Part shown: in pieces, positions 21,577 through 62,065 of the stretch
How the letters are laid out: every line of letters begins with the position of its first letter
Position numbering within the stretch: the first letter of the stretch is position 1
Assembly (NCBI RefSeq): GCF_008831285.2
Contig: NC_045147.1
Coordinates: 21,840,981 to 21,904,980, forward strand
Direction of reading: 5' to 3'
From: Nymphaea colorata
Lineage: Eukaryota > Streptophyta > Magnoliopsida > Nymphaeales > Nymphaeaceae
Length of the DNA: 64,000 nucleotides
Translations under genes and position numbers: made by a program
The notes under the pieces: generated by a model
What the model was told of the DNA's origin: nothing
The model's input: the letters and a program-made list of their open reading frames with translations, nothing else
The model's database searches: none

Positions 21577-24500
21577 TCAAACGAACAAGCAACATTTTAA
21601 TCTCATCATCACTAGAAAATTATGCATGATTACAAATGTGTGTCCAGCAAACTGGGATTCGGCTGGAGGTAAATTAGGAGTGACCTGCCATGGATTTTCT
21701 GTCGTTTCTGTTGTACCACTGATTCCTAATGTATTTAGTTCCCAGAGCAAACCGTTCATGCCCACAATAAACATACCCATACCAGATTCGTAACCTTCTC
21801 TGTACAGTTTTCCACATTTGTATTTGGTCACCTTAAATGCATCACAAAAAATTCTTCCTTGTGGATTCCATTCCATTTCAAACTTCAACAAATCTACATC
21901 TCCAACGTTTGTGTTTTATGCATGCTATGCATCACATGCAATCATGATTTAATAGCCCAAATGAAGACATATCTACCAACAAGGGCAACTAATGGTGTTC
22001 AGAAACATCTTGGTAGTGAAGGATCTAAGAGGTATTTCCATGAAACCGGAAGGATTGTACTATATGTAATTTGCAGTGCAATGATCGGCTCTCCAAAGAA
22101 GAAACTGCTTTATTGAACGCAAGAATATACCTGAAATATTGGTCATGGCACCAGCACCCTTCTGAGCAGCAAGTGCCCGCAACTTGTCTCCAGTAGCTAA
22201 CAGAAGCAAGCTTTTCATATGCTGCTTTTGTTCTTTAGGGCTAGATGTCTTCGCTAAGGCATCCTCGAATGCAAGGAGGTCATGCATCGTTATGCATGGA
22301 AGGGACAATAAAACCTGTAATAAGAAGAAAAGCACGCAAAAAAGAGAAGGGATTTATAAGCCTCCTTATAAACTCGTCCACCAAAAAAAAAAGTTTACTT
22401 GAGATGAGATAAGAAGACCCGGAAGATGGACTATGAGTCAACAAACTGCAGTACCTCCTTACATGCAGCGTCCTTATTAGACAGGGAGGTGAAAATATCA
22501 CAACAGAGCCCCACAAGATCTGCACCGATGATTGCATTGGAGTCTAGCATCAAACCTCTAATGATTGCAGAAAACATCTCCTTTGCAACAAATGCCCTGA
22601 GTCCAGGATTATTTGTTGAAACAGCTAGTAGAATGACAGCCCCACAGAATGATAACAACTTAGCCACTGCCTCGCCATCAGGCCAACAAAGAATTTCCAA
22701 ACTAAGTTGAAGAACAGGAAAAGTAGGACCATTCCGTTTAAGTAGAAAGCTGCAAACAAATTCAATTACTCCATCATCGATATGAATATTTAAAAAAAAA
22801 AACAGAAAAACATGAGCGCATTGAAAGCAGAATGGTGTTAGTGACGCATATCACGTCCACAAAGAGATAGCCAAAGAATAACTAAAATCATTTAGCATAC
22901 CACATTAGAGAATTGGAGGCCAAACCTTCCAGGCCTTCCACATTTGATTCCATACGGTTAGCATGTCCAACTTGTTCTAATAGAGACAAACAGGCATTTA
23001 AACCAGGAGATGCTATAACTGATAGCAAGGAGCATATCTCTCGTGTCAATGATCGAAGCAGCTGTTCTTCCATTACTTCTACCTGCAAATCCGATGAAGA
23101 AAAATTGCCACCAATATCTGGAATTTTTGCTCTTCCTTCATTGATTAGATTGGTCCATGAATAAGTAAGGACCTGATAACAATGGCTAAACAGCGGGAGC
23201 AGAAATTTTGTCAGCCATGAATCCCATAACTCTGTAGGGCAAGATTTCACCAGAGGAGTCAGAACAGAGTGGGTGAGTTGGCGAAGATGCCAAAAATTCA
23301 TTGATCTTATATTTTCCATGAGAGCTAAAGCAACAGAACTGCTGTCCAAACATTTAAAGAAGCAGTCCCCAATGGTAGTTGACAGGCCTAAGACATTATA
23401 CCTGAAACCAATTGATGTAATGAGATAACATTAACAGCAGTCTCATCTGGAACAAGGAAATGGGAATGTCATAGATGACATGAAAAATAAAAAGGGGGTG
23501 GGATTATAAAGGCATGCGCCAAAAGCTGAAAAATTAACAAAAAAAAAATCAACAGAACATAAAGCTATTGAGCAAAAAGGCTTGAAGTGACCCACACACA
23601 AACACGACAAAACAACCATATATATATAAAAAGCAACACAGAGAGGGGATGGATGATCATGGGAAGGATTTATGCATGATTTCCAAAAGTAGACCTTGTT
23701 GCTCCTAGACGTATAAAACGACATAACCAAGGGTAGAATGTTTAACATTATTGCTATCTATTAGATTCAATAGCGATTAATTCTCTCCTTATATGATTCA
23801 AGTTCAACTTTGCTATACATGTTAGTAACTGATGCCTTGAAAAATGAAAACCTAGGATCTGACTCTAAGACAATAATGTCTACATTTTCCATGTTCTAAT
23901 TTATCAATAGATACCAATATAACTTCTATTCATTAATGGTTCTCTACACTGCCTCCAACCAGGAAAATAAACCTCACTATTTTCAAATTCCTTTTCAATT
24001 ACTACTTTCCAGGGAGATGCTGTAGAATGCAAATGAGATCTTCTCGGCAAGTATAAAAGAGATTGTTGGAGAAATTTTCAAATTTAGGCAAATAACAAGA
24101 GAAGCTGATAATTAAATAAACACCAAAAACAAAAAATCAGTGCATCACAATCTTTTTCTTCAGTTGAAAAAGTGCATGCGGCCAGGAATATGGTATATTC
24201 TGGGCGATTAAAGCATTTTTCTTCCCCTGAAAAATGAATGCTGCTTTAAGTACACTTAGTTGGAACCTTATTGAGAAACTTGAAAGTGGGGCATCAAATT
24301 TATCCAAGTGCTAAAGAATTATGTGACAGGCATCAAGTTTATAAAAGTGTGAATGAAGTAAATGACTATATATCACTTACCCACTCTCTCTCGTCCCCTT
24401 CAACCAATTCCTTATGTCATTTTCTTTTATCTGCATGGTTTCATGCCCATGCATGCTGTTTAGAACTGCATCTGCCATGGATGGTGGGTCCTTAGGTACC

Positions 24501-27500
24501 TTAGAAGTTGACCCACCTAGAAGCATAGCTTGCTCTGTTTGGCTCATCCTCATAGCATTTTGTACAACTGGAGGCAAAGCTTGAGCTACAGACTGTGACC
24601 ACATTGAATGTACAGAACGAAGCAACTGCAACAGTATTTAAAGCTTAAACTAATGTTGGCATAAGACATATCCAAGCAGTAGATTTTCGACAAGTTAAGT
24701 CATGACTTACCCTAAGAAGAGGAGGCAGTATCCATGGTAAATGGGATGCAAATGGATGGGTACGATTAGAATCACTCTGCAAAATTGGAGAATTTTTTTG
24801 TGTCCCACTCCTCTTAAGTGCTCTCTCAAAGAATGTAATGGAGTGGAAGATGGACCACATTGTTGCATCATCCATGAACAAGCGAACAAGACCTGATGGA
24901 TCAGACAAATATGTATTCTGCCACTCCATCTGTGTCCATTCCTTGCTAATGGGCTCAAGTAAACAGGACAAAACTCTCTCTTGTGTTTCACTCCTGCGAG
25001 AAAGACAGTTGCCTTGGCAAAATTATTCATCTCTCTCATATGGAGAAGAAACTGCAGTGACCAACACAACTAAGTAGCAGTAATCTGTAGATGGCAGCTG
25101 TAAACTCAGAGGGCAAAATCAGCAAACGTAAGCACAAACTTAGAGGGCATAATTACCCAGCAGCAGAGGCAACAATTAGAAATGCTTCCCCCAAAATATT
25201 ATGCTCTCCACGAGGTAGACGCCCTTCTGCATGCAGACAAGCCACTGTCTCTGTAATCTCCTGTCGATTGTTCAGGTGAATAGAAGAAAATGTTAAAAAG
25301 CAACATCAGCACCATTGGCAGTTTTTTTTTCCTCAAACTAATCAGCTCTTCAAGTTTGAAAAGGGAAAATTATCCCTTTTCCCATAGGGCAGCTAACTTC
25401 TTCCTTACAATTGGTAGCCAATAACCGACACTTCTACAGACTAGCAACAGCAGAGCAGAAACATAGTTTTACATAGACTCAATCTTTAACACTTCAAGGT
25501 CCAATGGTTTGCAACAATTTTGGATTTTTTTTCTTTTTTATTTCACTTTTTTTTTTCGCCGTTCATGAGAAAGAGGAACATAATAGCTCACTTGCACATT
25601 TTCTTGTGACTTGTCCACAACGCAATTTGACTTGGAGCTCCTTCACCCCATTTACACCAAAGTTCATGAGATATTGAAGATCAGGTATTGTCATGTTATT
25701 CTCAAGACATTTTAACACTAAACTATGTGGTAACTGAGACAAATTTTATTGATTATGTGCTAACTGAGACAAATTTTATTGAAGAAACAACCAAAAAATT
25801 AAACAAATAATGGCAATCATCAGTTTAAATTTAAACAGGAACTCACATATGAAGACTTTCACATGCTTTAACATATATGAGAAGCGTTTATTTATTAGGT
25901 TGGACCTTCCCATTTCTCATCCTATGCTGATGTTCCATCAACCAAGCCCCAGTTTCCCAATCCTTTTTTGTTTGTGCAAAAAGGCATAAAACACAGGGTT
26001 GCACATATATGCATGTCAGATACAATAAAAATGACTATTCATCATTAGAAGTAGCTAGTTCTTATCCATAATGAGATCACAAGCTGCCAAACTTTCTTTC
26101 CGATACTCCCAGTGAGAAGTGGTACATGAAAGAAGAGAAAGCAAAAAAAAGACTAAACTAAAAAAGAATCTCAGGAGGAATTTCAGAATTGGAGCTGGAA
26201 AAACAACTAGATGATAACCTTCATATGTGGAAGAAGACTTCTATCAGCAGTTTGTGCAATCCGGATAAAGGATGTACAGATATGCAGTCTTACACTACGG
26301 ACATTATTTGAAGGATCCTGTCATTGGACCAGTCAAGCAAGGTTGAATACATATTTATCTGTATGAAAGAGTATTGAAAGAACGAATAATTTTACCATTA
26401 CCTTATCAGCAACAGGAAGCAACTGCAACAGCTCAAAAAGAATTTTTATAACCCCATGTACCACTTCAGGGAAGAACTTGAGAAATGGACCAAGAGCATC
26501 AAAATGGCGTGCAAGGATTTTCAAATACATGGGTTTGCTCACGTTCAAAGAAAGTAGTTGCCGAAGTGAGTCTGAATTTCATTATCAACCAAAGGATAAG
26601 GGAATGTCAAGAGCTGAACATGCTTGGTTGTAAAATTAAAGAAAATAAGCAGCTAGACAACCTTGTATTGCACGAAATGCCTGCTGTACTTCAGGGGAGT
26701 TGCGATCAGCAGATTCACATGGCCCATCAAAAACTGAAGCAACAACAGTTTCCAGAGCCAACTGAGTACTCTCCAGTAGGGGTAAATCCTGCAGACATCA
26801 GAAAATTACAGAAGATTGAGAAACAATGCCTTTCTAACATGTTCAGAAACACTAATACACAATATTGTGCCATTTCACTGGATGGTGGCTTACAATATGC
26901 GTGCACACTCGTACTGAATTCCAGAAAGGATATTTATGCTCTCCAATAAATTAAAAAAATCTGTTTTTTTTTATATATTTATATGTTGAACTCCTATCTA
27001 CCTTGTCAGGTGATGGTGCACTTGCACAGCTGTTAAAAACGGACTCTATTCTTTGAAATAACTTCACCGCTGCAACAACAGGCTTGTATGAGGAGACCAA
27101 TCGCACAAGTTCCAACTGTGCCAACATAAGATCAAGAAAAGAGTTAGAAAATAAAAATATATATTTTGCTCCCCATCCCGAAGAAGAAAAGGCACAAACT
27201 CCATCAACCATGGTGGGAAAAAGAGAATCAACATGGACTTCACAAAAAAAAATCCAAATAATAATTGACAAGAAAAAGTCATCATTGACCCTTAATGGAG
27301 GACAAGTACAATCTAATTTCCTAGTAAATGACCACACAACCTGTTTTTCTCATTGCAGATGCAGACAACAGATGATCATGCAAGGATGCAGATGAATGGC
27401 TGGGCACCTCAAAGACTGGAGGTGCCCTTAGTTTGCTGATGGGGCAAAATTATCATCCACTGTTTTATCAGTACCACCTTGAACCCTTGACATGGACAAT

Positions 27501-30500
27501 ATGCAGGAAAAGCTGTTTAAGTTAATCCACATATCCAGGCTACTCTAAAAGAAAGCAACCTAGATTCAATTATTTCACAAACAGTTGTCCGCAGGAAGCA
27601 TTGAACACTAATAAATGCACCAAATGTTCCAAAAAAGAACATTAAATGCATCCAGAAGACCGATTTGCAAGTCGTAGTTAAAAAAAAAAAAATGGACAAA
27701 TAGCAAATTTTGCTACAATCAACAACTTCCGCACCATTCTGCCACGGTACAGGCCATAGTCTCCCTTGCTGTCATAGCTATCATTCCAAATCTCAAGTGC
27801 CCCACCAGGAGAGGCAGTCTTCTTTACCATGCGTTGGAAAGAAAAATCTAATATAACGCCATATATGTGGTCATCAATACAAATTTGCATCCCTTTCTTT
27901 TCCTTGTCTGCTAATCCAGAAACAGAATCTTGACCAGAGGTAGGAGACCCATCTCGTGCTTGGGCAGGAACCTTTGGCTTCAGTAAGTCCTTTAGAAATG
28001 CCTGCAGAAGGAAAAAGTAATGTAGATAACTAGTATATATAGAAAGTTAATAAGCTCTTCACAAAAGGGGGAAACTTTACCAGCCAAAACTGAAGTGATG
28101 AAGCATGAAGAGCCAGCTTACTATGTTGAAAATACCCTAGCATCTGAAAGTTCAAGCATTAATGACTAGGTGTATGAAACTGGAAGAAAAATCAACAGAC
28201 ATAAATTGGTGGAAAAGCATTAGCAATTCAGAAATGAGTTCCAATAAGATATATTATCCCGAACCCATAAAAAAATTATACAATAAAATGTGGTCCAACC
28301 CCTTGTATGAATCTTTCACCTTGTGCAATTCAATCACGTATTGCATTTGAAATTCTCCTTCCAAAGAAAAAAGTTTGATGCTCAAGTATATCATAAACCA
28401 ATTGCAAGAAGAGAAAAAAAAATTGCAAACAGGCTCAATAGCAAAGTATAGCAAAGTACATGTTCTGTTGAAATCATTTAACAATCAACCTTACGATCCA
28501 AAGAAAATGAACTAGTGTGGAGCCCATTATTTGTTCCGAATCTTCTTTGATCTGACCTAAAATAAACTAATTCATGATGCAGCCATAAAAAGAACAAACT
28601 ATAGGCTTTTCTCTAGATTGCAGGAGGAGAACTCTGATTTAAAAGAAAAAAAAAAATCTGTATTTTTTTGGTCGTGTCTATGTGTGTGTGCCTGTGTCTG
28701 TGTCTGTGTACACACATCAGATCAATAGGTCTAATCAGATCCACAAAATCTAAATTCCTGAAACTGGAAAAATAAATGTCCAAAGTTCAAGAGTATGAAA
28801 AAAAAGTTTTAGAATGATCAGCAAAGAAAACATAGGATCAACTCTAACACATTTATAAGAAACGTGCTGGACAGGATTCAAAAGTTTAATTCTTCCCCAG
28901 CCTGAACACACACAGGCACACACCAAAAAGAAGAGCAAGAACATACCTGCTCAAGAAACAGATTGAGCAACAAACCATCAGCAATGCAGTGTAAATTATG
29001 GGAACCAAAATTCACCATGCTTTCGCACAGGCATTCAGCAAATTCATATTCACTTTGATCGAGACCAGCTGCATTCTGATGGCACCGCTGCAAAAACTCA
29101 CTTGATGCTTTTGTAAGGAAACTACAAATGTCATGCATGGCAGCATCAAACTCAGAAGAACCACAATCAGTATTCCTTTTCCTACAAAAGAAATGTGCAG
29201 TATGGAAATAAAAAATCAGAAAAGGAAGTGAGAAAGAATTATAAGGAGTGGGTTCAAAAGCTGAATTTGAAGATTCAAGAAGATTTTTTTTTTCCAAATT
29301 TCACACCTGGGAGCCATGATCTTGAAGAAGTCGCAAGCATGGGAACGAATATCAACAGAAGAAAGCAAAAATCCGCATCTGTTCATAAATTACCACAGGA
29401 ATAGCAATCACGAATGAGAGCATTGTGTGTGTTTAAAAGAGAATGGATACAGAACAAGTATCTTACGCGGTAATCAAGCCATATTTTGCAAGATCTGATA
29501 TAGGTGCCCATTCTGCATAAGTATTCACAGCATTGAGAGAAGCAATTACGGTGGTCAGGTGTTGCTTTGCACTGTCAAATTGACCTCTTCCAGCTTCAGC
29601 AATGGCAGCATGAAAGTGGTTTTGAAGCAACTGAAATATAAAGTTATAAACAATGCTTAATCTCCAGAAGCCAAGTTTAACTATACTTCACAAACTCTTT
29701 TAACAGGGACATGCACAAGCAAACTCACATTATATAATAACGGGAAAATATCTGGTAGGGATTGAGTAAGACCACGTACAAGTGTCCTTCGTCTGTCTCC
29801 TGTAAGCAAAGTAATCGCAGACTAGGTCTCAGGACAAGAAAGGAACAAACCTCGACATATTCTGACTTACTCATGGACTCACAATTGTCCAAAAGAACCT
29901 ATGAAGAAAAGTAAAATGAACTCTGCTTGATAACATTAGTATTCAAGTCTTCCAGTTAAGAACCTTCTAAGTCCTCATTATGAATGGTAACATCTTCCGG
30001 AAGCCACCTCAAAAGCATGGCAATCAATTCTGCCTGAAATTTATTAGCAATCCACATATCAGTAGCAAAATCTGAAACCATATATATATATATATATATA
30101 TATGGATGAAAGAGAAAGAACATGAGAAAAAATTATACCTCAGTAGGACCTTGCTGACATACAGCATTCAAAGAAGGCAATATCTCTTTCCATAAATTGA
30201 ATCCTTCACTCCTGATAACCTACAGGATGGGAACAATTATGTCAATATACATAGAATTGAGAGAAAAAACAAATTACCTTACTAAAGCTAGATTTCCAAT
30301 TGGAGTGGCCACAAGAAAGTGTATGCAACAGTCGCTTCTAAACCTATTAATATCCATGCCTTTCTGAAAAAAAGAATGAACTGATACAGAAGCTGGAAAG
30401 AAAAGTCAGAATTTCAGAGTGTACACTAAAAATGACAACAGAACATGAGCAGGTCCTCCATCTTTTGCACCTAACATTCTTTTGCATGTGGGGTGTGGAC

Positions 30501-31378: not shown

Positions 31379-34300
31379 GAGAGTGAGAGAGAGTTACTAT
31401 GCATTTGTTCTACTTCTACATTCATATTTTTCTAGTCTGTTGAAAGCTACATATATGATATATGTATCTATTATACAGGCAATGTTACGCGGTTTTTATC
31501 TAACATATATGATGTTATGCCATGCATTCATATGATTTTGACACTTCAATACTACTTACTCTGCTACAGTATGCTTAAGTTAATCTCAATAATGTGTAGT
31601 TTTTCATTTTTATATTCCTAATTTATTTTGAATTGGCAGGCACCAGCCTAGGTCTTTTATAAGGTCAAGCACTACTCCTGCTAAGAGTTTTTTATTACAA
31701 ATTTGGCATGCCTAGAACCTGTGAGGCATTTATATTATGGCAGCACCATAGGTGCATCCTAAACCAAAAGAAGCCTGTTTCATATGCACATGGCTCCTTA
31801 CGAAGACGACCACTTTTATAAACATCTTCACATTACTTCTATATCATGAACAAGGGAAACATAACATACAATGAAGCTGAGGACGTGAAATAATTGGAAC
31901 AAAACATTAACAATTTGAGAAACATATATTAACATAAAGTTTTTGAGATACTATTTGTGTGTAAGTGGAGAAATTGAAAACAACGGGCTACCTCTTGGGC
32001 CAGGTGGTTTTTTAATCTTGCATTGCTAAAAAACCATGCCAAAAGATACCTTCCTGATGGCAATGGATTGGCCACAGATTTTAACAATGGAATGGACCTT
32101 TTACAATAGTTTTTAGCAACACAAAAAGAAAATGATCATCCGGTCACAAAGATAGCCAGATGTTTTCTATTTATATATATACATATATGGAAAATACAAA
32201 TCAGCCAACTGCCAGAAATTGCTAGATGGTTAAATATTTAAATCCACCGCTAAAAAGCAACATAAACTGTCATTAAAACCAGTAATGTATGTATCGTACA
32301 ATACGTACCATATTGTTTGCAATTTACGGTACAATACACCCTCCGTATCGTAAATGGGGGGGTGTATCAGTCCTTTTTCGACTTTTCTTTAAAATGTCCG
32401 CCTTCTTCATTTCTAACGTAGGGATTGTGCGCCCAAGGAGGAAGATCATCAATTTTCATCATGAAAACATCGATTTTCACCATGAAATCATCGATTAAAT
32501 GGTCAATTTGTGTGTGGGTGGCTGATTCTTGTTTGGAGGAAAGGCGTTTTCTTGATTTCTTTTCTGTAAGGTATGAAACTCTGTTTTTACCATATATTTA
32601 TATATTTTTACCGTAGATTGAAAGATTTCAATTGTTTTTCATTAAGTTTACCGTAGGTTTTCGTTCTTTTTTTTTTTGTGAAAATATGGATCCTACATGG
32701 CAATGGTGGGAAAGAGTGAAGGACAATGACCGGTTAAAACTCAAATGTAGCTTTTGTGAGAATCCATTTTTAGGAGGGATTATTAGAATGAAACACCATT
32801 TGGCAGGGACCACCAAAGATGTAGCTCCATATGTTGGAAAACCAAACAAACCTTTACCTCCATTTGTGCGTCAGCAGTGTTTAGATATGTTTCATGTTTT
32901 ACATCAAAGAAAGATACAAAAACATATGGAAGAGGTAGATGTAGGCTATAATGAGCCTTGGGAAGATGAAGAAGAAGAAGAAACTTATGAAAATGTTGAA
33001 TATGATGAATATGATAGCAGACTAAGAACAGATGTGGATAGCTCTAGAGGTAGAGGGAAAGGAATCATGTATAAAAGAGGTCGATCTGGCCCATCGGGAA
33101 GGAAGAGAAGAGGCACACTAGATATTAGGGTCAGGCGTGGTCATCGACCACCTGGTGGTAGAGTTCCTACTGGTAGGTCTAGTGTTGGTTTTATTAAGAA
33201 CTTTTTTCCTTCATATACTAGCCCAGGTGGTTAGTCGCAGATTCGTGCTACTATGACATCTAAAGATATGCTACATCAGGCACAACTGTCGGTATGTAAA
33301 TGGCTTTATGATGCATATATTCCTTTTAATGCAACTAATTCCTTTCAGTTCCAAGTCATGGCAGATGCAATTGCATCTATAGGCCTCATATTCAAAATGT
33401 CATCATACCATCAAGTGAGGGACAAATTTCTTCAACCTACGGTGAAAGAAGTATCAGAACATTGCGCTCAGTTGAAATTATGCTGGAATGAAACAGGTTA
33501 CTCCATTATGTCAGATGGATGGACTGATACACAGTCAAGAACACTTGTGAATTTTCTTGTTTATTACCTTAAAGGTACAATGTTCTTAAAATTTCTTGAC
33601 TTATCTCATGTTCCTAAGACTGCTGAGATTTTGTTCAATGTTTTTGATAATGTCATACAAGAAGTTGGACCTACAAACAATGTACAATTTATTACAGATA
33701 ATGCTGAAAATTATAGAGTTGCAGGGGATGTTATTTCAAAAGTATAGAACATTTTATTGGAGTCCATGTGCCACTCATTGTGTTAATCTAATGCTTAAAG
33801 ATCTTAGTGACAAGCATGATATGAAATCAATTGTTGACCAATGCCAAGAGATTACAAAATTTATCTACAATCATGCATATGTATTGAGTTTGATGAGAAA
33901 ATTTAGAAAATGAGTGAATTAATACGACCTACACAAACTAGATTTGCCACAAATGTATTGACGGTGCATAGTATAGTGAAACAAAGAACTCCGTTGAGAC
34001 AGATGTTCGCTAGTGAAGAATGGGCTACATATCCACATGCTCATAAAAGAAATTCTTCTTTAGTTGTGGATATTATATTTAGTAACGAATTTTGGGAATC
34101 ATGTGTGAAGCTATTGAAGGTCTGTGTTTCATTAGTTAAAGTTCTCAGGTTAGCTGACAGCAATGATAGGTCTTCCATAGGGTACTTATATGAGGCTATG
34201 GATAAAGAAAAAGAGGCAATTCGAGACAACTTGAAAGGAAAGAAAAATTTATACATACCCATATGGAAGATTATAGATAAAAGGTGGACTGAACAACTTC

Positions 34301-36036
34301 TTCAACCCCTCCATGCAACAGCTTACTATCTAAATCCTACAATTAGATTTTCTACTACATTTAAGAAAGACAGAGAAGTCACGCATGGTTTGTTAAATTG
34401 TATTTAAGTGTTAGTGGCAAATTCTAGATAACAAGATGTTGTGCACAATGAGTTTGATCTATATGATAATTGTTTTGGGGACATGGGAGAACCTAGCACC
34501 GTTCGAGCCAGAACAACCATGCGTCCAGGTAAATACATAGAAATTTTTAACTTACTTTGCATTTGTTACATTTGATTCTTTTATGTTGCTTTAACTTTTA
34601 CATGAAATTTGTTTTATTTTTGTTTAGATTTGTGGTGGAATAGGTTTGGGATTGATTGTCCACACCTAGCACGTTTTGCAATTAAAGTCTTCAGCCAGAC
34701 ATGCAGTGCTAGTGGATGCGAAAGGAATTGGACTGTTTTTCAACATATCCACAGCAAGAACATGAATAGGCTTGAACAAAAAAGGTTGAATAACCTTGTC
34801 TTTGTTCGATATAATATGAGGATGAGGTTGAAACAAAAGTAATATAGCTTAATATTTACATTTGATTATATATGTTTACATATAACTATATATTAACAAG
34901 TTTTCTCTTATTTAACATAGACAATTACAAAAAACATCAGCAAGGAAGCACACATCTCAGTTTGATCCTATCAGCTTGGAAAACTTTGACCAACTATAAT
35001 ATTGGATGATGAAGATCTTCAATGCTTCAACTTGAAGCTGAAGCAACAGAAAAATGTGTTGATGAAGGAGAGCTTGCTGGTAATGAATATGTTGATGAGG
35101 ATATTCAAATTCATGAAGATGAAGATGAAGAAGAAGATGGAGATGAGGATGAGAATCAAGATGATGAAGATTATGAATGAGAGTCGAGAGTACTTTAATT
35201 TTATATGTATTGGCATTGAACATTTTCACAATTTCATTGTTATGAAATTTCATATTTCATTTTACAATGATATTGTTATGAATTTTGATGTCTATGAATG
35301 AGGAATGCGTAACTTTATAGCAATAATAAGTCTATCATTATCTAAAACATGTTTTCTATGAAGAACTTATTATTTTTTATTTTTACTGATTTTTTTATGA
35401 ATTTTTCGATTTTTTTCAATTTTTCCTGATTTATTATTTTAAAAAAATATGATACGGTTACGATACGTTACGATATTTTACAATACGGCGTATCTTAAAG
35501 CCCGACCGATACGGCTTGCGATACGCTTTTTACCACATTGGTTGAAACACCATAAACCATGGCTATACCATAGACTGTTGTTAATGGTTTTGTTGCAAGG
35601 TATTTTTAGCAACAGTTTAAAATTATTTTTGTCATCCAAAATAACCAGCTGATTCTCCCTCCTCTAACGATCTGGTCATCAGGATGTCTCACATACATAG
35701 CCCAATGCAAATTGGGCTGCGTGTGTGAGACATCCAAATGGCCAGATGACAGGAGGATTTCAGCTTCTACATATATGTGTAGATACATAAACATAGAGAA
35801 AGAAAGAGAGAAATTGGTAGGTGTTAGACATTTAAATTAGATAAGGAACAATCTCAGCCCTTGATTTTTTCATATCAACGGTTGAAAGAAAAATAAGAAA
35901 AAAAAAGTGATAGAAACATTTTCGTCATCTAGTATCAGTTCACACCTTTTTCTTCTTATTTTTCTCTCTATCACTGATATGGAAAACATCAACTACTTAG
36001 ATTGTTCCTTATTTGTCCATCATCTAAGTGCCTAGC

Positions 36037-43095: not shown

Positions 43096-43103
43096 TATAA
43101 ATA
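43096..43103 (+). promoter_or_regulatory. TATA box of the tryptophan synthase beta-like gene
   Basis: TATAAATA (in gtgtataaatatac) lies 213 bases before the ATG at 43309, predicting a start near 43130 and a leader of about 180 bases that ends in a short AC-repeat tract. Confidence 0.65.
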
Positions 43104-43308: not shown

Positions 43309-46300
43309 ATGGAGGCCACCGGAATTATCTCAAATGTTTCACGGAACATTACGAGTTGTCCGGCAGTCGAATCGGCTGAGTGCGATCAAAGGCGGTTGAG
43401 GCCACGGCCATCCATTTTTAGCCTAGAGAGAGGCGGTGGGCTCAAACGTGGAGCTGCCCGTCTTGTGCATGCAAGCAATTGCATCGCCGGTGGAGCGGCG
43501 GGGATGCAGACGATGGGAGAGGTGAACCTCAGAATCCCGGCCGATTCCCGTGGCCGTTTTGGCTCCTATGGAGGCCAGTTTGTACCGGAAACCTTAATAA
43601 CTCCTTTAAGAAAGCTGGAGGATGCTTTCAGTAAGTTGATTGAGGATTCAAGTTTCCAGGTTCGTTCTCTCATCCTTTGTTTTTCCAGATTTTGATCGGA
43701 GATTATAAATCCAGTTTATTTAAACTCATGAACCTTTTTGAACTCGAAAGTCTAACTCAGATGGATCGAGCTCTTGTCCGCAGCTGCCATCTTCTTCTTA
43801 ATTTCCCTTAAGGCATGCACCAGTGACAAGCCAAGGCACTCGAAAAAGATGGTAGCTTTCTAGTTCTTAGAAGGAAATAATCAAGAACCGCCAAATCCAT
43901 GAAATTTTTTGGATTGTCATATGTTTTGTGAATGGTATACTCTAGGGTAGTCGAGGAGAATCTACATCCACTAATTTTTAATAAAAACATTCAAAGTTTA
44001 CGAACTTTTTTTGGTTGGATCAAGCACATACAGGCACTGATTTCTCAGTATAAAACTACTAAAATTTCAGTAGTAGAAAACCAAAATTTTTTATGGAAAT
44101 AACTTAAACTAGAATACGTTTATGCAAAATTAGTAACCGTAAACATGTAAAACTTTTGCTAATTAATATATTTTTTGTATAAGTTTATATTGAATGGTCT
44201 TTATATACACAGAATCTATTACTATTGATATCCATAGTGTTAATTGACATCTGTCAGTAGCAATTGTCGGCATGAAAAAGACATTTACTGTAGTTACTTT
44301 TACTGGAAAATTCCATACCACCTGTTCGGCTCGGATAGATTTAGATTTGGATATGGACATCCCAACAAACCCAGAGAATCAAGCAAAGAAGGATGTTCCT
44401 TATATTGAGCTCCTTCTTTTGCAGATCACTGTGAGAAAGCTCAGTAACAAAGGCTAGTGGTATTTGTGGCCACCACTACTACCAATCAAATCAATCTACA
44501 AGGTTCTAATATTACACATACATAGAGTGACAACCTTTTAAATAAATGGAATCTTAGCTATATATTGTATTACAGGCCTTCAAGCAATGGTTTATTAACA
44601 TACGACTGTTGATGCTTGATGTAGATGGAGCTGCAGGTACTGCTAAGAGACTATGCTGGTCGCGAATCGCCTTTATACTATGCCGAGAAGTTATCGAACT
44701 ACTACAAGGAAGTTGGAGCTGGAGTGGAGATATACTTGAAGAGGGAAGATTTGATCCACACTGGATCACATAAGATTAACAATGCAATTGGTCAGGCATT
44801 GGCCGCGAAGAAGCTTGGGTATGAGCACGCCGTGGCTGCAACCGGCGCAGGGCAGCATGGAGTCGCCGCGGCGGCGGCATGTGCCAGGATGGGCTTGAGC
44901 TGCACCGTTTTCATGGGCACTAGGGACATGGAACGGCAGCCTCACAACCTCCTTCAGATGAGGACCCTTGGTGCTGAGGTAGATTAGTCTTCTCTGTGCT
45001 TCTTCAGAAACCTTTTCAACCAGTTCGAAAATAAATTATAACTTCCAAAGTGAAATTTTATTTATTGTTTTGAAAACGTATATACTTTTATGTATGTTCG
45101 TTTTATTGATCGAAAAATTGATATCAGTGCACTAATAAGGACCTATTATTGTAACACCCTATCATGAAACAGTTTAGCCTCGTGTTATTGAATATTTTTA
45201 AAATTCTTCAGAAAATTGATAAGGAGGTTGACTAAATGATTGAAGTGTCCTGGTTCCAAACTTTTTGAGTTACATAAACTACAACTACTGCTAGGAGCGG
45301 GTTGTGGGAGTGATTGGGGAAACTTGAATGTAGCTACTTAAATTTTCACAAACATCTGAAAGAAAAACCGTTTAATTTGTATTTTTGTTTTCTTCTTATA
45401 GGTAAGATCTGTAGAGGGCAACTTCAAAGATGCAGCATCACAAGCAATCAGGGAGTGGGTGTCAAACCTAGACACCAGCTTCCACCTCTCAGGGTCACTC
45501 GTTGGTCCGCACCCATGCCCATCAATGGTGGGGGAGTTTCAGTCAGTCATCGGGAAGGAGGTGAGGAAGCAAGCAACAGAGAGATGGGGAGCAGGGAAGC
45601 TGCCAGATGTTGTTCTGGCCTGTGTGGGCAGTGGGTCGAATGCAATGGGAATCTTTAGCGAGTTCTTGGGAGATCAGAAGGTGAGACTCATAGGTGTGGA
45701 GGCAGCAGGCTTGGGGTTGGGAAGTGGGAGGCACTCTGCAACTCTCGCCAGAGGGGAGGTTGGCGTCTTCCATGGCTCCATGAGCTACCTTCTCCAAGAT
45801 GACTATGGCCAAATGACTGATCCTCACTCCATTGGTGTTGGGTAAGTTGATATTAATTGTTTTTTTTTGCCTTTGGTTCAAGGAATGCAAATGGGTAGCG
45901 CCCATCTTCTTTGAATACTATTAATATTGATCACTTGATCGTCTACGATGTCGCTGTTTCAGAATTGTTTGTGTTGCTGACCTGCCACTGAATTCAGTAT
46001 AGATCTAACATTGTCTCCGAAGTTGATCATATAAATGTTGTTTGATTATGTTGCCGTTTCAGAATTGTTTGGATTCCTGACCCGCCACTAAACTCCATAC
46101 AGATAAAAAATAGTTATCTCTAAGTACTTCACGATATAATTGATTGTTGATAACTGTGTTAGGTTGGAGTATCCGGGAGTCGGGCCGCAGCTCAGTTTCC
46201 TCAAGGATATAGGACGCGTCGAGTATTACACCGTCACTGATGCAGAGGCAGTGAATGGTAGGACAATCTCTCTCTCTCTCTCTCATTTTAGATGATTAAG

Positions 46301-46507
46301 ATTAAGTTCCTGATAAGTGCTCTCTTGCCTGCAGCATTCAAGAGACTGTGTGCATTGGAAGGCATAATTCCTGCATTGGAGGCATCACATGCTCTGGCCT
46401 TCCTCGACAAGCTCTGCCCTCAGCTGCCTCATGGCTCAAGGGTGGTGGTCAACATCAGTGGGAGGGGCGACAAGGATGCAGAGATGGTCTTACACCATAT
46501 ACAGTGA
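43309..46507 (+). CDS. Tryptophan synthase beta-like protein with altered active site, 5 exons
   Basis: Exons 43309-43659, 44625-44978, 45402-45841, 46163-46257 and 46335-46507 give 470 residues, normal for plastid TSB. About 65 N-terminal residues (Ser/Arg-rich, few acids after the start) look like a transit peptide. The fold-type II PLP core is intact: PLP lysine Lys167 in [17 protein letters not shown] (191-197, His115 equivalent), GPHP (270-273), EGIIPALE (Glu350 equivalent) and NISGRGDKD (Ser377 equivalent). Three conserved positions differ. The catalytic Glu109 equivalent is Ala189 (codon gca, VAATGAG for AETGAG), the Asp305 equivalent is Glu384 (GLEYPGVGP for GLDYPGVGP), and the phosphate-loop GGGSN is GSGSN (311-315). 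The family condenses indole with serine to tryptophan. Glu109 is the acid/base of that reaction, so this enzyme is probably altered in activity or specificity. All splice sites are GT-AG and the frame is clean, so it is not a decayed pseudogene. Confidence 0.9.
45948..46145 (+). repeat. About 99-bp tandem duplication in intron 3 of the TSB-like gene
   Basis: gctgtttcagaattgtttg (about 45,953) recurs as gccgtttcagaattgtttg (about 46,052), each followed by ctgac(c)tgccact and an atatagatc/atacagat block. Each unit carries an acceptor-like gtttcag. The true acceptor used for exon 4 is downstream at 46162. Confidence 0.75.
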
Positions 46508-59089: not shown

Positions 59090-62065
59090 ATGGAGGTTTC
59101 GGTGATCGGAAGCGCGCAGTTTCCCGCCGGGAGAAAGAACTCGGCACTTTTGAAGTCGGATCTCGCCGGATGTTGCAGAGAATTGGCGCCTTCCAGGAGG
59201 GACTTGAGTTCAATCGGGTTCGGTTCCGCGGGGGCCGGGGGAAGGCGGAGGAGGGTGGCTGGAGTCTCTCTGGTGACGGCCACCAGGGCAGAGATGGCCG
59301 TCGTTGAGAAGGCAGCCGGCAAGCGTTCGCACGATAAGAAGGTAAAAAATTTCGATCTTGGTGTCTGTTTCTCTTTTCATGTTAGCTAGTCCGTTTCTCT
59401 TTTCATGTTAGCTTAAATCTAGTTGCTATGTGAGGGGTTTGCTTCAGGATTGCCCCCTTTGTTGCTCCTTGTAGTCAGAGGAGTGTCTTTATAAAACGCT
59501 ATAGATTTTTTTCCTCCTGACTTTTTTTTCGTAGAACTTTCCCCCTGTTCTGGTGATCAGGAATAGACTCCAGATTTTTTCTTTATTTTTGCCAAGAAGA
59601 TTTATCCTTGCTCTGTTTCTTCTTTGCAGCGTGGTAAAATTTTGTGTTTTTGTTGGGTAGAAGGCCCGTTACTTTCCGCCAAATTCGGGATATGTCGATA
59701 ATGACTTGTCTTTGAAATGACGAGATTGTCCGTCCACCTTCACTATCCCCCTTCGACGCGTGAGACTTGTCGTCTCGCTTACTCGGAGGCAATGAAGTTC
59801 AAATGTTTCTTTTTTTTCCCTCTTTGTTTTTTTCCTCCCACGATTTTCTGTTTTTCATTTTCCTCTTAGAAAATTCTAATGGTCGACAGTGAAGATCCTT
59901 CTTCATGTAGTATGGCTTTGTTATCCTTGATATTTGTTTTATGCCCTGAGCTAATCGATATTTTTGGGAACAAGGTAATAAGAAATTTTAACTGATACTT
60001 ACTCCTGAAATGAATAAAATCTCACAGTGATTATATACGTGAGGTTAGGCTTCCTATGTTTCGTAAGAGGCCAAAGTGGTCTTCTAAGACTTTAATGGAA
60101 TCCATTCGGGATGTTTACAACTAGTATTTGTTTGGGTCTACTGGCTTTGGTGGGTAGTTTTTCTTACGAAGTAGCAACTTGGGTAGTTGTTTATTGGTGG
60201 GATAATTAATTGTTGTGGTGCAAGCGCCTCTACAGATGTTTGTTTTCGCTTCCATCTGTCAGTTCCTTTTTTCTTCTCTGTGTTTCTGCAAGCGTTTGAA
60301 GGAAAAACTTAGATATGAACCCTCAGAATCCAACTATCGGTAGCCAATAGAGGAGTAAATTTTGCAATAAAATGATGCTAGTTAACTCGTAAATTTCAAA
60401 CTGATCAGCTGAAGAGTCTGGCTTTGAAGGTTTAATAACGCGAAACCGATTCAAGTGTCAACTTGTTTGATTTGGGTTGAAGTAAATATGTTTCCTTCAG
60501 TTCATGGAGACTTGAAAGTAAAAACTAGTTGGAATTCAATTCCTACCATTTAACACGGCCCTAACTCTTCTGAACGTTGTCACGCAGAGTGGTCGAACTC
60601 CGTTTTACGTAGCACTTCCTCTTGATACAGTCTCGCCCGACAACAACTTGAACCATATGAAGGCCGTCTCCGCCGGATTGAAAGCTTTGAAGCTGCTTGG
60701 TGTTACGGGTGTGAGCGTCCCAGTGTGGTGGGGCATCGTAGGGAATGAATCTGAGGGAAAATTCAACTGGTCTGCATATCAATCTCTTGCTGAAATGATC
60801 CGTGATTCCGGGCTTAAGCTCCGGTTTTCTCTCTGTCTCCATGGTAGACCCAACATCTCGCTTCCTTCGTGGGTGGTTAAGATCGGAGAAAGCGAACCTG
60901 ATATTTTCTTCAGGGACCGCGCCGGAAAACGGTACATGCACTGCTTGTCGTTGGCAGTTGATGAGCTTCCGGTACTTGCAGGGAAGTCTCCGATACAAGT
61001 CTATGGAGAATATCTTTCTGAATTCAAGTCGTCGTTCTCGAGCCTTTTAGGCACCACAATCACGGTAAACATGATCTGCAATATTGGATGAAGAACAGTC
61101 TCTCTTATTTGGGTTCGACTGTTTCTGTCGTCAATGGCTGTCCTTTTTTTTTTTGGTCTGAAATTCGAATTTTCTAACAGGATATCTCAGTGAGCCTTGG
61201 CCCCGATGGTGAGCTTAGGTACCCCTCATTCCCGGAAAATCGACGCGGCAAGATTCAGGGGGTCGGAGAGTTTCAATGTTATGACAAACACATGCTTTCC
61301 AGCCTGAAGCAACACGCTGAAAGTTCAGGCAATACTCTTTGGGGTCAATCCGGACCTCATGATGCGCCTAACTACAACCACTGGCCACACACTAACAACT
61401 TCTTCAAGGACTCCGGCGGTTCCTGGGAGACACCATATGGTGATTTCTTCCTCAGCTGGTATTCAGGCCAGCTGATTGACCACGGCGATCGCATCCTCTC
61501 TCTCGCGTCACAGGTTTTCGGCGATAGCGCAGTCACCATCTCCGGCAAAGTCCCGCTGGTGCACAGTTGGTACAAGACTCGGTCACATTCTGCTGAGCTG
61601 ACCGCAGGATTCTACAATGCTGACAGAAGAAACGGCTATACCGCCATTGCCAGAATGTTTGCCGCAAATTCAGCTACACTAGTGCTGCCAGGGATGGACC
61701 TCTCTGATGCTCATCAACCATCTGAAGCGCTATCAAGCCCGGAGTCCGTAATCTCGCAAATAAGAGCGGCTTGCTTCGAGCATGGAGTGTCATTATCAGG
61801 GGAAAACACATCAGTTTCCGGTATACCAGACAATTTCAGTAGGATTAAAGAGAACCTTAAGAATGACCAGTGGAGCTTAGATACATTCAACTACTGCAGA
61901 ATGGGTGCATACTTCTTCTCACCGGAACATTGGCCAAAGTTCACAGAGTTCTTCCGGGGGTTGGAGTTGCCTGAAAAAGATATTGATGACCTCCCAGACA
62001 ACGAGCAGAAGCTCTCCTTCGTTGGGGCTGCTCAGTCAGAGAAGACATTGCTGGTGCCAGCATGA
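59090..62065 (+). CDS. BAM9: BAM9-like beta-amylase homologue, probably non-catalytic, 3 exons
   Basis: Exons 59090-59341, 60588-61064 and 61181-62065 give 537 residues, as in Arabidopsis BAM9. The first 75 or so residues are Arg/Ser/Ala-rich and look like a plastid transit peptide. A glycoside hydrolase 14 barrel follows: PFYVALPLDTV (89-99), VSVPVWWGIV, GPDGELRYPSFP (250-261), GEFQCYDKHML, PHDAPNYN, GDFFLSWYS, HSAELTAGFYN. The first catalytic Glu (soybean Glu186) is Glu254, and a Glu lies at the second site (SGENTS, Glu451, soybean Glu380). The flexible loop with Asp101 (HQCGGNVGD in active enzymes) is replaced by CLHGRPNISLP, and the inner loop with Thr342 (FTCLEMRD) by LVLPGMDLSD. These losses mark the BAM9 clade, whose members lack amylase activity and are thought to regulate leaf starch breakdown. 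The ATG follows a stop-free short stretch and is the first Met giving a transit peptide. Confidence 0.92.
59366..59413 (+). repeat. Short tandem duplication in BAM9 intron 1
   Basis: tttctcttttcatgttagct occurs twice, 26 bases apart, just inside the intron. Confidence 0.8.

Follow-up and report, generated by a model that had tools for sequence, protein, structure and literature searches.

The closest described systems to the gene considered here are the TSB-likes, noncatalytic paralogues of the tryptophan synthase beta chain (TSB) that bind TSA and stimulate it to release indole (Florean et al. 2025, PMC12727527). The TSA/TSB-like pair of A. squarrosa is reported to convert indole-3-glycerol phosphate (IGP) and serine to indole, not to tryptophan, and the A. 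squarrosa TSB-like is reported to give no tyrosine from phenol (PMC12727527). As described there, three sites characterize these proteins: Ala almost always replaces Glu190, with Ser or Pro taking its place in Solanaceae; Glu universally stands in for Asp386; and position 222 is occupied by Arg or Lys (PMC12727527). A permanent contact between this Glu and the Arg is a hypothesis put forward by the authors of that work. Substitutions described in the same source bear on both changes, as TSB-E190A loses tryptophan synthesis, and E386D lowers indole formation, which ties the Asp-to-Glu change to TSA activation (PMC12727527). When both changes were put into A. squarrosa TSB, tryptophan synthesis was lost and, by that account, no indole activity was gained, so that other residues matter as well (PMC12727527). 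A TSB-like is present in all core eudicots examined there and is reported as absent from monocots and basal eudicots (PMC12727527). Bacterial TSBs with Gly, Ala or Ser at the Glu site are described as able to use phenols (PMC12727527). The TSB-like mechanism and both substitutions are already in print. In tea, the formation of indole from IGP in vitro is reported for CsTSB2 combined with CsTSA; CsTSB2 is wound-induced, and its regulation runs through a G-box bound by MYC2 (PMC7242085).

Gene structure and active-site residues

The window, which is the whole 64,000-nucleotide stretch of DNA analysed, contains a TSB paralogue with five exons on the plus strand at 43309-46507, encoding 470 amino acids in a model built from splice borders and homology. 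A sequence-only reading had placed the gene at 44625..46257; the gene is real, but that interval covers exons 2-4 only. The intact frame and correct splice sites which the same reading described are borne out, as all 470 codons are open and each of the four introns runs from GT to AG. Exon 1 (43309..43659, +) begins with the ATG at 43309, remains open up to a donor GT after 43659, and encodes an N-terminal extension and the start of the enzyme core. Exon 2 (44625..44978, +), delimited by its AG and GT borders, carries, according to the residue map, the PLP lysine K167, Ala189 and R221. Exon 3 (45402..45841, +) carries K244, R252, a three-residue deletion relative to both TSB and E. coli, and the phosphate loop GSGSN. 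The motif GLEYPGVGP, with Glu384, is encoded by exon 4 (46163..46257, +), and exon 5 (46335..46507, +) contributes E429 (E. coli E350), S455 (E. coli S377) and a TGA stop. A possible TATA box, recognized as a string match to TATAAA, lies 213 bases upstream of the ATG (43096..43101, +). The N-terminal 75 residues include 10 basic, 6 acidic and 10 Ser/Thr residues, and the extension is, judged from the sequence, a probable plastid transit peptide.

At the site of the catalytic Glu109 of E. coli, the codon GCA (44838..44840, +) encodes Ala189, so the Glu that defines a canonical enzyme is absent, and GAG (46167..46169, +) encodes Glu384 at the Asp305 site. Both replacements, of the acid/base Glu and of the closing Asp, had been called with exact numbering, and the Ser noticed earlier in the Gly-rich phosphate loop is likewise present (GSGSN vs GGGSN; S312 at E. 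coli G233). His166, Lys167, Gln194, Arg221, Glu429 and Ser455 of the window protein correspond to His86, Lys87, Gln114, Arg141, Glu350 and Ser377 of E. coli, the PLP lysine thus being kept. Arg221, the partner of residue 305, is also kept but does not discriminate, as canonical TSB has Arg there too. K244 and R252 are kept at the positions of E. coli K167 and R175, which we take to belong to the TSA interface. The deletion in exon 3 is accompanied by other changes relative to TSB and E. coli, in a region that presumably faces TSA. Altogether, canonical TSB and E. coli agree at 52 positions at which the window protein differs or is gapped, one of them in the phosphate loop. Set against the published TSB-likes, A189, E384 and R221 correspond to sites A190, E386 and R/K222 and have the residues described for all three (PMC12727527).

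The window protein scores 525.8 against the NCBIfam trpB model TIGR00263, whose cut-off is 392.45; a bifunctional family scores slightly higher, yet below its own cut-off. Among solved structures, the best matches are beta chains of tryptophan synthase, including a reconstructed ancestral chain. The TIGR00263 score speaks for a tryptophan synthase that functions despite its changes. However, the catalytic Glu is absent, the published TSB-E190A is described as without tryptophan synthesis (PMC12727527), and the genome has a canonical TSB, so that this explanation is extremely improbable.

TSB and TSA-family genes in the genome, and the origin of the paralogue

The genome searched comprises 407.8 Mb assembled into 783 contigs. 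The window protein gave ten exon-level matches in it, distributed over three genes (five in the window gene, four in a gene on contig C1 and one in a gene on C8). The C1 gene, at C1:34496468-34502410, is a canonical TSB with Glu192 and Asp388 intact and Arg224, and is the one such gene found by the search that the sequence-only reading had proposed. The C8 gene is a type II TSB, as judged from the motif TETGAGQWG and a weak match to the window protein; the label is that of PMC12727527, and the assignment by motif is ours. The profile PF00291 has 27 matches genome-wide. Eight PF00291 loci were compared with the window protein, and strong matches were confined to the window gene and the C1 gene; of two further places compared, one is the type II gene and the other has no match to it. 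The best PF00291 match in the genome is a PALP-family stretch with three internal stop codons on a 35 kb contig (G000:C244:25616-26407); tblastn finds no match between this stretch and the TSB-like.

The profile PF00290 has two matches, both in one C1 locus. Its eight coding fragments, when joined, score 322.9 bits with BX1 and 321.0 with a chloroplast TSA chain as the best solved-structure matches, values so close that the comparison does not separate TSA from BX1. The locus is read as TSA because it is the only one of its kind found, and we infer that it is not a BX1/IGL gene. No second IGL/BX1-type locus was seen with PF00290, applied exon by exon with only the best candidates scored, a search that a short or divergent gene could escape. 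With the alpha-type locus read as TSA, the genome has both a canonical TSB and a TSA beside the window gene, as is expected for a TSB-like.

The exon lengths of the TSB-like (351/354/440/95/173) are close to those of canonical TSB (357/357/443/95/176), and the positions of all four introns are common to both genes, which indicates a duplication at the DNA level. Identity between the two proteins is 57% overall and rises to 64% in the enzyme core. In the core, pS is 0.866 and pN 0.219; as synonymous sites are saturated, the duplicate is old, and dN/dS can be stated only qualitatively, with pN far below pS. In its sequence, the gene resembles an old duplicate that arose at the DNA level and is kept under constraint. 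Its Ala189 and Glu384 do not look like the outcome of chance or decay, given the open 470-codon frame, the 64% core identity and the saturated pS. A functionless, decaying duplicate would accord with the 52 altered or missing positions on which TSB and E. coli agree, including the one in the phosphate loop. However, the intact frame and splice sites, core values of pN 0.22 against pS 0.87 and the presence of the published two-residue signature all argue against decay, which is very improbable. For similar reasons the suggestion that selection had been relaxed is a poor fit: the gene retains an intact frame with pN far below pS, and the same two changes recur across the TSB-likes examined in the published work, except that Solanaceae have Ser or Pro where the others have Ala (PMC12727527).

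Synteny was examined with 367 ORFs of at least 40 aa, taken from the 28 kb surrounding canonical TSB and compared with the window and 150 kb on C10, an amount of sequence too small to decide on an origin by whole-genome duplication. There were eight matches at E 1e-6, seven of them on the TSB-like itself (on either strand) and one, weak, at 35452-35553.

Other features of the window lie on both sides of the gene. About 9 kb upstream of the TSB-like, at 32617-34407 (+), an ORF with what we take to be a BED-type zinc finger precedes a DUF659 ORF (PF04937, E 6e-34) and one more ORF; together they are probably a transposon, presumably of hAT type. The exons of an Exportin-5 gene, which we assume to be of the HASTY type, occupy 22431-29300 (-), where PF19273 matches two of the ORFs, strongly at 22888-23430 and weakly, below the cut-off, at 28878-29300. 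Exons of a glycosyl hydrolase family 14 (beta-amylase) gene, recognized by PF01373, are found at 60522-62065 (+).

Proposed role in indole release

With a probability of roughly 0.92, the window gene would encode a TSB-like pseudoenzyme that binds TSA and activates it for indole release. The match to the published signature makes a regulatory role the likely option. Such a role, together with the loss of tryptophan synthesis, had been among the suggestions of the sequence-only reading, and both fit the published TSB-likes (PMC12727527). The residue signature alone is no proof of TSA activation, since the double-substituted A. squarrosa TSB is described as having no indole activity (PMC12727527). 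The three-residue deletion and accompanying changes in the presumably TSA-facing region also count against the proposal, as does the restriction of the published TSB-likes to core eudicots. TSA binding and activation, indole release, plastid location and stress induction are predicted here by analogy with published work on other species.

Under the proposed mechanism, the TSB-like would take over from canonical TSB as the binding partner of plastid TSA and would activate TSA allosterically. Glu384, being longer than Asp, may remain bonded to Arg221 at all times and so hold the active conformation. With the indole-activating carboxylate missing, the TSB-like would not join indole to serine, so that the cleavage of IGP by TSA would end in the release of free indole. 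The indole could then supply defence volatiles, floral scent or indole-derived metabolites, and the canonical TSB of the genome would compete with the TSB-like for TSA.

A different proposal is that the protein is still active as a PLP enzyme but catalyses another reaction, using a different nucleophile or only eliminating water from serine. It retains the PLP lysine and most of the phosphate loop, as well as E429 and S455, and the use of phenol by bacterial TSBs with Gly, Ala or Ser at the site offers a precedent (PMC12727527). However, the A. squarrosa TSB-like is reported to have given neither tryptophan in vitro nor, from phenol, tyrosine, and the lowered indole formation of E386D ties the Asp-to-Glu change to TSA activation (PMC12727527). 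The other beta-replacement or elimination chemistry raised by the sequence-only reading is thus not favoured and is quite unlikely, and the regulatory TSB-like is the preferred explanation.

Distribution and comparison with known systems

The plant's position relative to the core eudicots was approached through an AP3 end motif, which we take to be of the core-eudicot (euAP3) type. The exact pattern has no match in the genome, although the motif itself varies. A looser pattern has 81 matches, nearly all of them one repeat; three stand apart, and the one of these that was read is not AP3. The DNA word for the loose pattern recurs near-identically on most large scaffolds of the genome, and hence is probably a dispersed repeat. 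Membership of the core eudicots is presumed here from the gene itself. A position of the plant outside that group, with the TSB-like and its hijacking of TSA being older, or having arisen more often, than published, and with the phosphate-loop Ser marking yet another form that changed independently, seems quite unlikely.

Ala at the Glu109 site also occurs in prokaryotes. An exact DNA pattern for a single motif, ATGAGQHGV, was found in 12 stretches of a bacterial and archaeal collection of 84,980 genomes. Two of the 12 are open TrpB frames, one is a broken trpB remnant and nine have no TrpB match; Ala in this one motif thus appears rare, in a count that has no TrpB total as its denominator. 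The combination of Ala with Glu at the Asp305 site was not seen among the 12 stretches. Both open frames (L040:1-852 and L042:1326-2186, the latter on the minus strand) encode TrpB of Planctomycetia metagenome bins, with Ala at the Glu109 site and Asp305 kept. They share an 11-residue motif with the window protein but differ from it in that the bacterial GLDYPGVGP keeps the Asp. The two contigs both end a few bases from the motif, which is a strange coincidence and may reflect the assembly. The remnant, at L049:2580-3124, is a broken trpB-like sequence of Corynebacterium mendelii with a 10-residue motif.

The analysis names a probable indole switch for one more plant and describes, in a single genome, a small gene set, in which a single TSA-family locus and one gene each for TSB, type II TSB and TSB-like were found. 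It also indicates that a TSB-like pseudoenzyme can be found by residue reading alone. Tea CsTSB2 is likewise a TSB paralogue, but its G-box sets it apart (PMC7242085), as CACGTG does not occur in the 3 kb preceding the window gene, where other E-box-like words are present; this difference is no proof in either direction. Canonical TSB of the same genome shares with the window protein the fold family, five coding exons, the intron positions and the PLP lysine, but differs in having Glu192 and Asp388. The closest likeness is to the core-eudicot TSB-likes described in PMC12727527, with which the window gene has in common the Glu-to-Ala and Asp-to-Glu changes, an Arg at the pairing site and a canonical TSB paralogue in the genome.
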